From: Sphingopyxis sp. FD7
GTDB lineage: Bacteria > Pseudomonadota > Alphaproteobacteria > Sphingomonadales > Sphingomonadaceae
Assembly (NCBI RefSeq): GCF_003609835.1
Contig: NZ_AP017898.1
Coordinates: 124,001-188,000 of the forward strand
Reading direction: 5' to 3'
DNA: 64,000 bases
The position numbers and the translations under genes were made by a program. Each line of letters starts with the position of its first letter. Positions within the stretch are counted from its first letter, which is position 1. A model generated the notes under the pieces. It made no database searches. It was not told where the DNA came from and worked only from the letters and a program-made list of their open reading frames with translations. Of this stretch, positions 1-54,197 are shown piece by piece.

Positions 1-54
1 CCCCCGCCTTCGCGGGGGAATACGGATAGATTAGGCCCCTGCCTTCGCATGGGC
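1..54. repeat. Two short TTCGC-loop palindromes upstream of sucA
   Basis: Two REP-like hairpins lie directly before sucA: positions 1-18 (CCCCC arm, GCCTTCGC centre, GGGGG arm) and 35-54 (GCCC arms around TGCCTTCGCA, one arm imperfect). They belong to the same family as copies at 2908-2971, 4217-4325, 9075-9153, 14751-14829 and 62351-62428. No coding signal is seen in the first 71 bases. Confidence 0.7.
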
Positions 55-2989: not shown

Positions 2990-4207
2990 ATGAGCACCGA
3001 AGTCAAAGTTCCCACGCTGGGCGAAAGCGTTACCGAAGCGACGATCGGCGAATGGCTGAAACAGCCCGGCGAAGCGGTCGCGCTCGACGAGCCGATCGCC
3101 AGCCTCGAAACCGACAAGGTCGCGGTCGAAGTGCCCTCGCCGGTCGCGGGCGTGATGGGGCAGCAGCTGGCCGCGGTCGGCGATACGGTGAACGTCGGCG
3201 CGGTGATCGCGACGGTCGAAGCGGGCGGCGCGGCCGCGGCACCCACGCCGGCGAAGGCCGAGGCGGCGGCGCATGTTCCCCACGCGACCGCGCCCGGCGC
3301 GGGCGAAGGTGTCGATACGGTCGCGACCATGTCGCCCGCGGTGCGCCGCCTCGTGCTCGAACACGGACTCGACCCGACGAAGATCAAGGGCACGGGCAAG
3401 GACGGTCGGCTGACCAAGGAAGATGTGCTTGCCGCGGCGAATGCCGCGCCCGAAGCCGCACCCGCTTCGACCCCCGCAGCGGCGCCTGCCGCCAGCGGCG
3501 CGCCCGGCCGCCAGGAAGAGCGCGTCAAGATGACCCGCCTGCGCCAGACGATCGCCAAGCGGCTGAAATCGGCGCAGGACACCGCGGCGATGCTGACGAC
3601 CTTCAACGACGTCGACATGTCGGCGGTGATCGAGGCGCGCGCGCGGTACAAGGATCTCTTTGAAAAGAAGCATGGCGTCCGCCTCGGCTTCATGGGCTTC
3701 TTCACCAAGGCCGCGTGCCTGGCGCTGAAGGATATTCCGGCGGTCAACGGCCGGATCGACGGCGACGAGATCGTCTATAATAATTATATGGACATCTCGG
3801 TCGCGGTGAGCGGCCCCAGCGGCCTGGTCGTGCCGGTGATCCGCAATGCCGAGGCGCTTAGCTTTGCCGAGATCGAAAAGACGATCGGCGATTTCGGCAA
3901 GCGCGCCAAGGAGGGCACGCTGACCATGGACGACATGGCGGGCGGCACCTTCACCATCTCGAACGGCGGCGTGTTCGGCAGCCTGATGTCGACCCCGATC
4001 ATCAACCCGCCGCAGTCGGCGGTGCTGGGCCTCCACCGCATCGACGAACGCCCGGTCGTCGTGAACGGCGAGATCGTCATCCGCCCGATGATGTATCTGG
4101 CGCTGAGCTATGACCACCGCCTGATCGACGGGCGCGAGGCGGTGACCTTCCTCAAGACGATCAAGGAAGCGATCGAGGATCCGACGCGGTTGCTGATTGA
4201 TCTGTGA
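2990..4207 (+). CDS. sucB: Dihydrolipoyllysine-residue succinyltransferase, E2 of 2-oxoglutarate dehydrogenase
   Basis: E2 core of the 2-oxoglutarate dehydrogenase complex; it transfers succinyl from lipoamide to CoA. Of 405 residues, 1-75 form a lipoyl domain with the lipoylated lysine in [10 protein letters not shown] (Lys43). An Ala/Pro-rich linker and a peripheral-subunit-binding domain (about 112-150, [20 protein letters not shown]) follow. The catalytic acyltransferase domain ends with [12 protein letters not shown] (His about 376). The start at ATG 2990 is preferred over an in-frame start at 2906, because the earlier codons only translate the repeat and the lipoyl domain starts at [13 protein letters not shown]. 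An AGAGAAGAAG ribosome site precedes it. Confidence 0.97.
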
Positions 4208-4216
4208 TGACATGTG

Positions 4217-4325
4217 CTCCTGCGAACGCAGGAGATATTTGAGCTGTTCTCCTGCGAACGCAGGAGTCCAGGGTGGAGAGCAATGACGGCGCAACCAAAC
4301 CCTGGGTTCCTGCTTCCGCAGGAAC
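4217..4325. repeat. Three REP-like hairpins upstream of the GIY-YIG gene
   Basis: Copies are at 4217-4234 and 4249-4266 (both CTCCTGCGAACGCAGGAG) and at 4306-4325 (GTTCCTGCTTCCGCAGGAAC). The last is part of a 26-nt unit, 4300-4325, that recurs in the same orientation at 4635-4660 with a single mismatch. The two units bracket the GIY-YIG reading frame. The arms differ in sequence from the sucA-sucB copies but keep the same size and centre. Confidence 0.75.
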
Positions 4326-4338
4326 ACGGAAGTGCGAT

Positions 4339-4632
4339 ATGACTCGGCCGGGCTATCTCTATCTGATGGCTAGTGCGCGGAACGGCACGTTATATCTTGG
4401 GGTTACCAGCGATCTGCTGGCGCGAGTGTGGCAGCATCGCAATGAGGTGGTGGAAAGTTTCACCAAGAAATATGGCTGCCACACGCTGGTCTGGTACGAA
4501 GCGTTCGACGATATTCAGCAAGCGCGTAAGCGCGAACTGCAAATGAAGAAATGGAAGCGGGCGTGGAAAATTGAGCTGATCGAACGCGATAATCCGCAAT
4601 GGCTGGATTTGTTCGACAGGCTCTCTCTTTGA
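4339..4632 (+). CDS. Small GIY-YIG nuclease-domain protein (YhbQ/UPF0213 type)
   Basis: A 97-residue protein made of a single GIY-YIG domain. The GYLYLMASARNGTLYLGVT motif is near the N terminus, followed by the usual LLARVWQHR arginine segment and, near the C terminus, ARKRELQMKKWKRAWK. Family members cut or bind branched or structured DNA; the substrate here is unknown. ATG 4339 is chosen because an earlier in-frame start (4273) would translate the flanking repeat (PWVPASAGT). Its codons are visibly poorer in G+C than those of sucB and lpd on either side. It is bounded by 26-nt direct repeats at 4300-4325 and 4635-4660 inside an otherwise standard sucAB-lpd cluster, which suggests it entered as a unit. 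Confidence 0.85.
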   Translation: MTRPGYLYLMASARNGTLYLGVTSDLLARVWQHRNEVVESFTKKYGCHTLVWYEAFDDIQQARKRELQMKKWKRAWKIELIERDNPQWLDLFDRLSL

Positions 4633-4634
4633 CG

Positions 4635-4660
4635 CCCTGGGTTCCTGCTTTCGCAGGAAC
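4635..4660. repeat. Downstream copy of the 26-nt direct repeat bounding the GIY-YIG gene
   Basis: Begins two bases after the GIY-YIG stop codon and contains the palindrome GTTCCTGCTTTCGCAGGAAC (4641-4660). It matches 4300-4325 in 25 of 26 positions and in the same orientation. Confidence 0.8.
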
Positions 4661-4676
4661 GCATATGGAGTGAGTT

Positions 4677-6089
4677 ATGGCTGATTACGACTATGACGTC
4701 CTTGTCATCGGTGCCGGTCCCGGCGGTTATGTCGCGGCGATCCGCGCGGCGCAGCTGGGGCTCAGGACCGCGTGCGCCGAAGGGCGCGCGACGCTGGGCG
4801 GCACCTGCCTCAACGTCGGCTGCATCCCGTCGAAGGCGATGCTGCATGCGTCGGAATATTATGAGGCGGCGGCGGGCGGTGCAATGGCGGCGATGGGCAT
4901 CAAGGTGAAGCCCGAGCTCGACCTTGGCGCGATGCACGGCCAGCGCAAGGATGCGGTGAAGGGGCTGACCGGCGGTATCGAGTTCCTGTTCAAGAAGAAC
5001 AAGGTCGACTGGCTGAAGGGCTATGCGCAGTTCACTTCGAAAGACAGTGTTGAGGTCGCGGGCAAGACCTATCGCGCCAAGAATATCATCATCGCGACCG
5101 GCTCGTCGGTGACCCCGCTGCCGGGTGTCGAAGTCGATAACGACAAGCAGGTGATCGTCGATTCGACCGGCGCGCTCGAGCTTGCCAAGGTGCCGGGCCA
5201 TATGGTCGTGATCGGCGGTGGGGTGATCGGGCTGGAGCTTGGCAGCGTGTGGCGCCGCCTGGGCGCCAAGGTCACCTGCGTCGAGTTTCTCGACCAGATC
5301 CTGCCGGGCATGGACGGCGACGTGCGCAAGGAAGCCAACAAGATCTTCAAGAAGCAGGGCATCGAGTTCAAGCTGAAGACCAAGGTGACGAAGGCCGAAG
5401 TGAAGGGCAAGAAGGCGGTGCTGACGCTCGAACCCGCGGCGGGCGGCGCGGCCGAAACGCTGGAAGCCGACGTGGTGCTCGTGTCGATCGGGCGGCGGCC
5501 GAACACCGACGGCCTCGCGCTCGACAAGGCGGGGCTGACGGTCAACCAGCGCGGGCAGATCGAGATCGACCATGATTTCCGCACGAGCGTTCCCGGCATC
5601 TGGGCGATCGGCGACGTCGTGCCGGGCCCGATGCTCGCGCACAAGGCCGAGGACGAGGGCATCGCCTGCGCCGAGAATATCGCTGGGCAGACGGGCATCG
5701 TGAACCACGACGTCATCCCCTCGGTCGTCTATACCTGGCCCGAAATCGCCGGCGTCGGGCTGACCGAGGAGCAGGCCGTTGAGAAGGCGGGCGGGGAAAA
5801 GGGCGAGGTGAAGGTCGGCAAGTTCCCGATGCTCGCGAACAGCCGCGCCAAGACCAACCACGAACCCGACGGCTTTGTGAAAGTGATCGCCGACGCCAGG
5901 ACCGACCGCGTGCTCGGCGTATGGTGCATTGCGAGCGTCGCGGGCACGATGATCGCGCAGGCGGCGCAGGCGATGGAGTTCGGCGCGACGTCCGAAGACA
6001 TCGCCTATACCTGCCACGCGCATCCGACGCACAGCGAGGCGATCAAGGAAGCCGCGATGGCGGTGACGGGCAAGCCGATCCACATCTGA
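4677..6089 (+). CDS. lpdA: Dihydrolipoyl dehydrogenase (E3)
   Basis: FAD-dependent E3 that reoxidises dihydrolipoamide with NAD+ for the 2-oxo acid dehydrogenases. Of 470 residues, the N-terminal FAD fold carries GAGPGGYVAAIRAAQLG, the redox disulfide is in GGTCLNVGCIPSK (Cys44, Cys49), the NAD fold carries VIGGGVIGLELGSVW, and the C-terminal dimer interface has the catalytic HPTHSE. A purine-rich GGAGTGAGTT lies before the ATG. It is the third gene of the sucA-sucB-lpd set, separated from sucB by the GIY-YIG unit. Confidence 0.97.
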   Translation: MADYDYDVLVIGAGPGGYVAAIRAAQLGLRTACAEGRATLGGTCLNVGCIPSKAMLHASEYYEAAAGGAMAAMGIKVKPELDLGAMHGQRKDAVKGLTGGIEFLFKKNKVDWLKGYAQFTSKDSVEVAGKTYRAKNIIIATGSSVTPLPGVEVDNDKQVIVDSTGALELAKVPGHMVVIGGGVIGLELGSVWRRLGAKVTCVEFLDQILPGMDGDVRKEANKIFKKQGIEFKLKTKVTKAEVKGKKAVLTLEPAAGGAAETLEADVVLVSIGRRPNTDGLALDKAGLTVNQRGQIEIDHDFRTSVPGIWAIGDVVPGPMLAHKAEDEGIACAENIAGQTGIVNHDVIPSVVYTWPEIAGVGLTEEQAVEKAGGEKGEVKVGKFPMLANSRAKTNHEPDGFVKVIADARTDRVLGVWCIASVAGTMIAQAAQAMEFGATSEDIAYTCHAHPTHSEAIKEAAMAVTGKPIHI

Positions 6090-9074: not shown

Positions 9075-9153
9075 TCCCCGCGAAGGCGGGGATCCATCTC
9101 CTGACAGTTCGCAATCGCACCGACGGGTGATGGGCCCCCGCCTTCGCGGGGGG
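9075..9153. repeat. Two REP-like palindromes between convergent genes
   Basis: Copies at 9075-9092 (TCCCCGCGAAGGCGGGGA) and 9134-9153 (GCCCCCGCCTTCGCGGGGGG type) are inverted relative to each other. They lie between the 3' ends of the hydrolase gene and sppA and fill most of the 121-bp gap. Either could act as a bidirectional transcript end, although no T-run follows. Confidence 0.7.
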
Positions 9154-11251: not shown

Positions 11252-11279
11252 CGTCATCCCGGCCTTCGCCGGGATGACG
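11252..11279. repeat. Perfect palindrome with TTCG loop between the SDR gene and sppA
   Basis: CGTCATCCCGGC and its exact complement GCCGGGATGACG flank a TTCG loop, giving a 12-bp stem. It lies in the 159-bp gap upstream of sppA. It belongs to the same general TTCG-centred class as the other hairpins but has longer arms starting CGTCAT. Confidence 0.75.
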
Positions 11280-12258: not shown

Positions 12259-12361
12259 CGTCATGCTGAACTTGTTTCAGCATCCATGGCCCGCCTTCTC
12301 GTTCAACGCGGCGCAGGCCGAACGGGCTGGCCATGGATGCTGAAACAAGTTCAGGGTGACG
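12259..12361. repeat. Long-armed inverted repeat (GTTTCAGCATCCATGG type)
   Basis: Two arms of about 31 nt, starting CGTCATGCTGAACTTG and ending CAAGTTCAGGGTGACG, face each other across about 40 bp. The arms are nearly perfect complements. A second member with the same arms but a different centre lies at 54096-54197, so this is a dispersed family. The element fills most of the proB-SDR gap and could fold in the transcript. Confidence 0.8.
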
Positions 12362-54095: not shown

Positions 54096-54197
54096 GTCAT
54101 GCTGAACTTGTTTCAGCATCCATGACCTGAGCGTCCGTCCCACGCTGCGCTGAAGGAGGCGACGGGCCATGGACCCTGAAACAAGTTCAGGGTGACG
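54096..54197. repeat. Second member of the GTTTCAGCATCCATGG inverted-repeat family
   Basis: Arms starting GTCATGCTGAACTTG and ending CAAGTTCAGGGTGACG match the arms of 12259-12361. The inner part of the right arm has a few mismatches (CCATGGACCCTG in place of CCATGGATGCTG) and the centre is different. It lies between erpA and xthA. Confidence 0.8.

Follow-up and report, generated by a model that had tools for sequence, protein, structure and literature searches.

The locus between sucB and lpd in Sphingopyxis sp. FD7 raises the question of why a very small nuclease gene should be closely bracketed by hairpin repeats, and whether gene and hairpins belong together. In the window, i.e., the whole stretch of 64,000 nucleotides that was analyzed (NZ_AP017898.1, positions 124,001 to 188,000), sucB (2990-4207) and lpd (4677-6089) enclose a GIY-YIG open reading frame of 97 aa. 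The features of the locus, in window coordinates, are as follows.

4217 to 4234, plus strand: additional upstream hairpin, a copy of the one at 4249 to 4266.
4249 to 4266, plus strand: REP hairpin CTCCTGC-GAAC-GCAGGAG, which forms an inverted REP pair with 4306 to 4325 (REPIN-like, 4249 to 4325).
4300 to 4325, minus strand: left 26-nt direct repeat, with the REP hairpin GTTCCTGC-TTCC-GCAGGAAC at 4306 to 4325.
4339 to 4632, plus strand: GIY-YIG nuclease gene, 97 aa, with its ATG at 4339 and its stop ending at 4632; Pfam match and residues Y8, Y19, R29, E66, and N85 kept.
4635 to 4660, minus strand: right 26-nt direct repeat, with the REP hairpin GTTCCTGC-TTTC-GCAGGAAC at 4641 to 4660.

A first-pass annotation of this DNA had described two 26-nt units in the same orientation, with one mismatch and a 20-bp palindrome in each, around a 97-residue GIY-YIG gene poorer in G+C than its neighbors, and coordinates and sequence agree with that description. 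The repeats are CCCTGGGTTCCTGCTTCCGCAGGAAC (4300-4325) and CCCTGGGTTCCTGCTTTCGCAGGAAC (4635-4660), each contains a 20-bp hairpin with 8-bp arms and a 4-nt loop, the open reading frame lies between them, and its G+C content is 52.7%, compared to 64.6% for sucA, 66.8% for sucB, and 65.4% for lpd. Missing from that annotation were the two further hairpins upstream (4217-4234 and 4249-4266), on account of which we describe 4249-4325 as an inverted REP pair, a second GIY-YIG unit upstream of sucA, and the presence of five such units in the genome. The pattern TTCCTGC-N4-GCAGGAA occurs in the 3.94-Mb genome only at the two places flanking the window nuclease, and a reversed-pattern control gave 0 matches in the same genome.

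In the window protein, Pfam recognizes only GIY-YIG (E = 2.2e-13), and not the HUH tyrosine transposase domain (Y1_Tnp) of RAYT proteins; a search of NCBIfam gave no usable match, and the named best matches of the protein are from Sphingopyxis. Residues Y8, Y19, R29, E66, and N85 are invariant in 11 sequences, and Y8 is nearly invariant in a 30-row alignment. We take the GIY Tyr, the YIG Tyr, the Arg, the Glu, and the Asn to be the catalytic set, and by these residues the protein is presumed to be an active nuclease. AlphaFold predicts one compact domain that spans the whole protein (pLDDT 92.1, pTM 0.84). The best match in the PDB, both by sequence (E = 4.7e-6) and by fold (E = 7.5e-4), is 1zg2, a UPF0213 protein with 25% identity and the sole solved fold at E ≤ 0.001; structures of Slx1, a structure-specific nuclease and a distant fold relative, come next at E of about 0.08 and above. 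The model has no extra DNA-binding domain, and so recognizing a REP would be left to the nuclease domain, as would fit structure-specific recognition.

Thirty lpd loci were fetched for comparison of the site, 57 of the 60 genus genomes giving a match. The gene with its REPs stands between sucB and lpd in five of these loci, our own included; a bare gap of 42 to 45 bp is found in eight, and other sequence in 13, eight of which were inspected. L009 has a different CGTC pair at this site, and L015 and L022 have other repeats. The first-pass annotation had proposed looking for an empty site in sister strains. In L021 the site is gene-less and contains nothing but two inverted REPs belonging to this family, with an identical right-hand junction. 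Judged by its sequence, this state is what would be expected either from loss between the direct repeats or from a stage before the arrival of the gene. Copies of the nuclease with at least 80% identity are present in the window's own genome and in seven others of the 60 searched, and the copy in G018 carries stop codons. Since every copy at this cutoff sits at sucB-lpd, the subfamily seems to be an old one, with a patchy distribution and a fixed position; the window unit appears to be old and settled, not active, and a recent hop of the gene is ruled out within these 60 genomes.

The window unit has company in its own genome. A search with PF01541 finds six genes, one of them UvrC-like, and hairpins adjoin all five of the others, each set with arms of its own: CCCGC with loop 4, CTGAA with loop 5, CCTGC with loop 4 (the type of the window unit), CCGGA with loop 5, and CCGGG with loop 5. 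Arm-perfect hairpins are present on both sides in four of the five units and on the right-hand side only in L004. Three further features of the window belong to this setting.

1 to 18, minus strand: right-hand REP hairpin of the neighboring unit, whose GIY-YIG gene (C1:123670-123888) lies just before the window, upstream of sucA.
2908 to 2971, no strand assigned: inverted REP pair GCCCCTGC...GCAGGGGC between sucA and sucB.
54099 to 54193, no strand assigned: REPIN of the CTGAA/loop-5 family, for which the GIY-YIG paralogue at C1:3514685-3515008 is the likely cognate.

In sister genomes (L141 and L142), REPs with the arm type of the pair at 2908-2971 bracket a GIY-YIG gene of another subfamily, which lies upstream of sucA. 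Copies of the CTGAA/loop-5 REPIN are seen at both 12263-12283 and 54099-54193, with their likely cognate nuclease about 3.3 Mb off in the same genome. CCCGC/loop-4 REPs, the arm type of the unit directly upstream of the window, form an inverted pair at 9075-9152, and a lone perfect palindrome at 11252-11279, CGTCATCCCGGC-CTTC-GCCGGGATGACG, has CGTC tags at both ends and no partner nearby in the hairpin list. The CTGAA and CCGGA arm types are scattered through the genome, mostly in inverted pairs, of which many have a spacing of 74 bp or 44 to 47 bp. Dispersed inverted REP pairs within one genome are what defines REPINs, and pairs of CTGAAACAAGTTCAG, the CTGAA REP, are of this kind both here and in relatives. 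The genome-wide class I counts (155 + 181) were set aside as a measure of REP number, because many of the hits are CCGGCGAAGGCCGG, which was taken for coding background.

Some further observations concern other sites. The genome's own L005 unit (G000:C1:2870873-2871154; set L334 to L363) lies between phage-head-like terminase and portal genes, a neighborhood that by its gene content appears gene-transfer-agent-like; several relatives have short gene-less gaps at this site, some of them with other REPs. A 327-aa open frame at L005 was considered as a longer protein and rejected, being an open stretch that precedes a nuclease of about 99 aa. The gaps of L354, L360, and L328 contain other long palindromic intergenic repeats (CGTCATTGCGAGCG... 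and ...CTTCGACAAGCTCAGGG...) at the same kinds of site. The genome has one match to Y1_Tnp (RAYT-type; L263), with no CGTC REP near it and apparently with longer terminal repeats of another kind.

The hairpins can be assigned to a described class of repeat. CGTC REPs have a stem of 8 to 9 bp, a loop of 4 to 5 nt, an unpaired CGTC or TGTC head, and a CCA tail, and they occur mostly as inverted (HH) pairs; the superfamily is found in several phyla and, in the survey that described it, is said to “apparently lack a dedicated transposase” (Di Nocera 2013, PMC3733652). The hairpins beside the GIY-YIG genes agree in stem, loop, head, and tail and differ in having a gene associated with them, the GIY-YIG gene, where the survey reports none for a transposase. 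Arms are mostly 7 to 8 perfect pairs, in a search that itself imposed loops of 4 to 5 and arms of at least 7. CGTC or TGTC heads are present in 71 and CCA tails in 73 of the 114 oriented loop-4 REPs of our wide set (the best 80 of at least 549 loci, duplicates removed). Among 164 such REPs from Sphingopyxis, 68 have a CGTC head and 27 have GTCA, i.e., CGTC one base further out, and the CCA tail is rarer (32/164). Inverted pairs occur with the 74-bp and 44- to 47-bp spacings noted above. The repeats as a set thus appear to fit the CGTC superfamily; the tags of the window's own four REPs have diverged from CGTC (ATGTG and CTGTT, with GCATA after the right arm).

The association of gene and hairpin extends far beyond this genome. 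GTDB contigs were scanned for the protein alone, with a pattern taken from 11 aligned relatives, and the best 80 of at least 549 encoding stretches were kept, so the wide set leans toward close relatives of the query. Hairpins were defined there by arms of at least 7 and loops of 4 to 5. In these best 80 of at least 549 loci, which include 15 named phyla, hairpin density within 100 bp of the gene is 8.75 per kb on the left and 8.11 per kb on the right, compared to 0.51 per kb on either side at 0.5 to 3 kb, an enrichment of about 16-fold; one or more hairpins lie within 300 bp in 77 of the 80. A lack of palindromes near family members was an outcome that the first-pass annotation had named as fatal to its proposal, and the enrichment answers it. 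After removal of three duplicates of Sphingopyxis loci, hairpins with the REP motif are found on either side in 71 of the 77 remaining loci and on both sides in 50. Loci positive for the motif occur in 14 of the 15 named phyla among the best 80 of at least 549, with Kerfeldiibacteriota at 0/1 and Chloroflexota at 1/3; for 11 loci no phylum is named, a single label is archaeal, and the labels are only as good as the binning, since most records from outside the sphingomonads are metagenome bins.

Within Sphingopyxis, 128 of 146 loci have a REP-motif hairpin on one side or the other, 102 of them on both. The 146 are the loci left from the 150 fetched, just as 77 are left from the 80 of the wide set, once the duplicates L037, L046, L051, L147, L166, L171, and L175 were taken out; L117, which repeats the window's own locus, was also excluded from the comparison. 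The control gene BolA, of similar size, has hairpins on both sides in 0 and on one side in 3 of 30 loci of the same genus, with 0 REP-motif hairpins. The 18 Sphingopyxis loci with no REP-motif hairpin on either side comprise one clade, which acts as a negative group within the data, and seven further loci.

L232, L234, L235, L241, L243 to L245, L247, L248, L253, and L255: REP-free GIY-YIG clade of 11 genes at one Sphingopyxis locus, possibly domesticated.

Five loci from a plasmid collection, drawn from 33 matching records, were examined as well, and three are bracketed by hairpins. A Neisseria gonorrhoeae GIY-YIG gene of this collection has CGTC-ATTCCCGC hairpins around it, which by their sequence fit the dRS3 type of Neisseria, itself among the CGTC-tagged REPs, and a Shinella gene has loop-5 hairpins on both sides, while Photobacterium and Rhizobium tumorigenes genes have hairpins on the right only. 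In Sinorhizobium meliloti, a GIY-YIG gene between hflX and mazG (L365) is bracketed by long palindromes that we take to be RIME1-like, and so the idea of a nuclease partner may extend to RIME elements. Among the matches listed in searches of open-access full text in PMC, there was no report of a GIY-YIG gene tied to REPs or dRS3.

In 100 of the 104 Sphingopyxis loci that have hairpins left and right of the gene, and in 48 of 52 such loci of the wide set (best 80 of at least 549), left and right agree in the inner five arm bases. The commonest layout, REP> gene <REP with the gene inside an inverted pair, is seen at 35 Sphingopyxis and 22 wide loop-4 loci, and 13 Sphingopyxis loop-5 loci have the matching inverted layout. 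On the protein tree, restricted to REP arm types, 127 Sphingopyxis rows with nine states require 11 changes, compared to a mean of 81.8 (minimum 72) in 300 shuffles. Many of the rows are orthologues at one locus, and the count was therefore repeated on a set reduced to a single row for each combination of locus and label; its 32 rows require 11 changes versus 18.8 (minimum 14; 500 shuffles). Outside the Sphingomonadales, 48 rows require 10 changes versus 18.9 after shuffling (minimum 15). An earlier version of the tree test took in every label that recurred (204 of 223 rows), two non-REP label types among them, and in it 137 Sphingopyxis rows with 11 labels require 13 changes versus 91.4; the counts restricted to REP arm types are the ones relied on here. 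Stop codons were entered as X in 13 rows (eight Sphingopyxis, five wide), and no reliance is placed on single branches, since these are quick trees of about 97 columns. At the locus upstream of sucA, defined by clustering of the flanks, REPs are CCTGC in six genomes and CCCGC in five, and there are two groups of nuclease, 52 to 66% identical between groups and 77 to 100% within them. REP arm type is linked to nuclease clade, and the gene is flanked by REPs of a type specific to its enzyme, as in RAYT/REPtrons.

Copy numbers point in the same direction, with exceptions. GIY-YIG relatives are present in 47 of the 60 genus genomes, with up to nine per genome and several arm types. Eight of the 60 encode a nuclease with 66% or more identity to the L002 protein, and these eight have 2 to 92 copies of CTGAAACAAGTTCAG (median 27.5), compared to a median of 1 in the other 52 (Mann-Whitney p = 1.2e-4, relatedness not corrected for). 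Ten or more CTGAA REPs occur in seven of the eight genomes with an L002-type nuclease and in nine of the 52 without. The lowest count among the eight is two, and in G013 the only two copies of CTGAAACAAGTTCAG in the genome flank its nuclease gene. G053 has 23 CTGAA REPs and no GIY-YIG match at the cutoffs used, which speaks against a tight link between nuclease and REP.

Most subfamilies, that of the window included, are confined to a single orthologous locus and appear to have been inherited vertically. Two CCGGG/loop-5 subfamilies are different, with 15 copies in 13 flank clusters. Measured from CGTC to GACG, nine copies are 394 to 396 bp long and six are 384 to 386 bp, and the GIY-YIG gene is the only gene identified inside these units. 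In the nine copies of 394 to 396 bp, the outermost 24 bp have a mean pairwise identity of 0.99 on the left and 0.96 on the right, and the adjoining 20 bp outside have 0.37 and 0.33; homology of the copies ends at the CGTC...GACG tags. From the 15 copies, their 13 flank clusters, and this limit of homology we conclude that the REP-gene-REP unit has moved: the same unit stands at unrelated sites with defined ends, as expected of a transposable element. G023 carries the unit twice (C1:484 kb and C1:1,611 kb), with two substitutions and one single-base gap between the copies. The last 17 bp to the left of the near-identical copies L214 and L222 agree too, which is probably a repeated intergenic motif.

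A search for empty sites with the joined flanks of five loci, plus those of L005, found gene-less orthologous sites and among them none that was base exact. The intergenic flanks of these sites have diverged, and for that reason no target-site duplication is claimed. At some of them other CGTC REPs are present, likewise ending in CGTC...GACG; an example is the L214 site in the window's own genome, with one lone 28-bp CGTC palindrome. A gene-less pair in G003 appears by eye to have subterminal sequence in common with the gene-bearing unit, as would be expected of a deletion derivative.

Taken together, the gene and its hairpins are probably one unit of a REP/nuclease system, in which the GIY-YIG nuclease likely recognizes its own CGTC REP family and is predicted to nick at the CGTC tag, the REP-bounded DNA being copied or moved. 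By analogy, the best reading is a RAYT/REPIN-like system with an unrelated enzyme. Binding and cutting of the REPs by the nuclease are what we infer from sequence comparison. The single-domain nuclease would recognize its cognate CGTC-tagged hairpin as single-stranded or extruded DNA, in a structure-specific manner like its fold relative Slx1, and would nick it at the tag. Units bounded by REPs would spread by this action, and REP pairs may be nonautonomous units served in trans. To our knowledge GIY-YIG enzymes hydrolyze DNA and none rejoins it, and so host polymerase, ligase, and repair would presumably complete the joining. We know of no GIY-YIG enzyme that transposes DNA alone.

Some of the same observations would be seen if the nuclease gene were simply selfish, likely using REP hairpins as landing sites only, cutting there, and being copied in by repair in a homing-like manner without spreading the REPs. 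The genes do lie inside or beside REP pairs, the same intergenic spots have different REP families in different genomes, and the locus-fixed orthologues fit homing into allelic sites. We nonetheless hold this to be unlikely. REP arm type follows nuclease clade, cognate REPs are more numerous where the nuclease is present, and the 15 copies, found at unrelated sites, carry terminal REPs of their own and cease to be homologous at the CGTC tags, so that the REPs are ends of the element and not merely its targets. Quite unlikely, in our view, is a guardian role for the host, in which the nuclease would trim or resolve REP hairpins and cruciforms and the REPs beside the gene would regulate its expression. 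The best fold match to an uncharacterized UPF0213 protein, the weak matches to structure-specific Slx1 that follow it, and the retention of the presumed catalytic residues would suit such a role, but the patchy presence in 47 of 60 genomes is untypical of a housekeeping enzyme, and neither up to nine relatives per genome with several arm types nor element-like copies at many sites would be expected of one.

That a tyrosine transposase of the RAYT or IS200 type moves the CGTC REPs in trans, with the GIY-YIG gene as a passenger, gains something from the one Y1_Tnp match in the genome. There is no CGTC REP near that gene, the sole match of its kind, which makes a RAYT-type driver unlikely for this genome, and the 2013 survey reports that tyrosine transposase genes are without flanking CGTC sequences in all the CGTC-positive species for which it names such genes (PMC3733652); we give this explanation very little weight. 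REPs are common between genes in these genomes, and a gene could come to lie beside such hairpins by chance or through assembly, but coincidence has a negligible claim against the genome-wide counts, the distance profile with its roughly 16-fold enrichment (best 80 of at least 549 loci), the agreement of left and right arms, the control with BolA, and the test on the tree, and was rejected.

The preferred reading, a nuclease partnered with its own REPs, invites comparison with known systems. In RAYT/REP systems (REPtrons) and REPINs, too, REPs of a matching type flank a small nuclease gene, there are several nuclease/REP pairs per genome, inverted REP pairs are dispersed between genes, and the nuclease genes are mostly at fixed loci, as is the rule for RAYT genes. 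The enzyme there is an HUH tyrosine transposase and here a GIY-YIG nuclease, and the repeats are GTAG tagged there and CGTC tagged here; lacking the tyrosine transposase, the present system works like RAYT/REPIN and yet is no member of it. The first-pass annotation had likened the locus to a RAYT/REP cassette. The analogy holds in that palindromes are enriched beside the genes and a gene-less site with a REP pair exists, but the direct-repeat layout on which it was built is not the commonest, the inverted REP> gene <REP being so, and this copy is not recently mobile. IS200/IS605 elements are likewise small, with end hairpins that adjoin a tetranucleotide; they differ in the fold of the enzyme, and the units here are 384 to 396 bp. 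GIY-YIG homing endonucleases such as I-TevI, which spread selfishly by cutting DNA, have a catalytic domain of the same family, whereas here no intron is seen, there is no separate DNA-binding domain in 97 aa, and the unit has its own terminal hairpins. UPF0213, the best match by sequence and fold, is a weak one at 25% identity to 1zg2, and Slx1 follows at E of about 0.08 and above; we know of no tie between either of them and REPs.

What moves CGTC REPs was left open by the 2013 survey (PMC3733652), and a nuclease matched to them by clade makes that question directly testable, in a small system of one protein and one 20-nt hairpin. We lean slightly toward regarding the 384- to 396-bp unit, with CGTC-tagged hairpins for ends and no gene other than that of a single-domain GIY-YIG nuclease, as a new class of bacterial transposable element and the missing engine of CGTC REPs across many phyla; it would be a second independent invention of the RAYT/REPIN lifestyle and possibly the smallest autonomous mobile element known. 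If this is true, two unrelated nuclease folds would have been recruited independently to drive hairpin repeats in bacteria, and a function would be assigned to many genes whose sole annotation now is “GIY-YIG nuclease family protein.”
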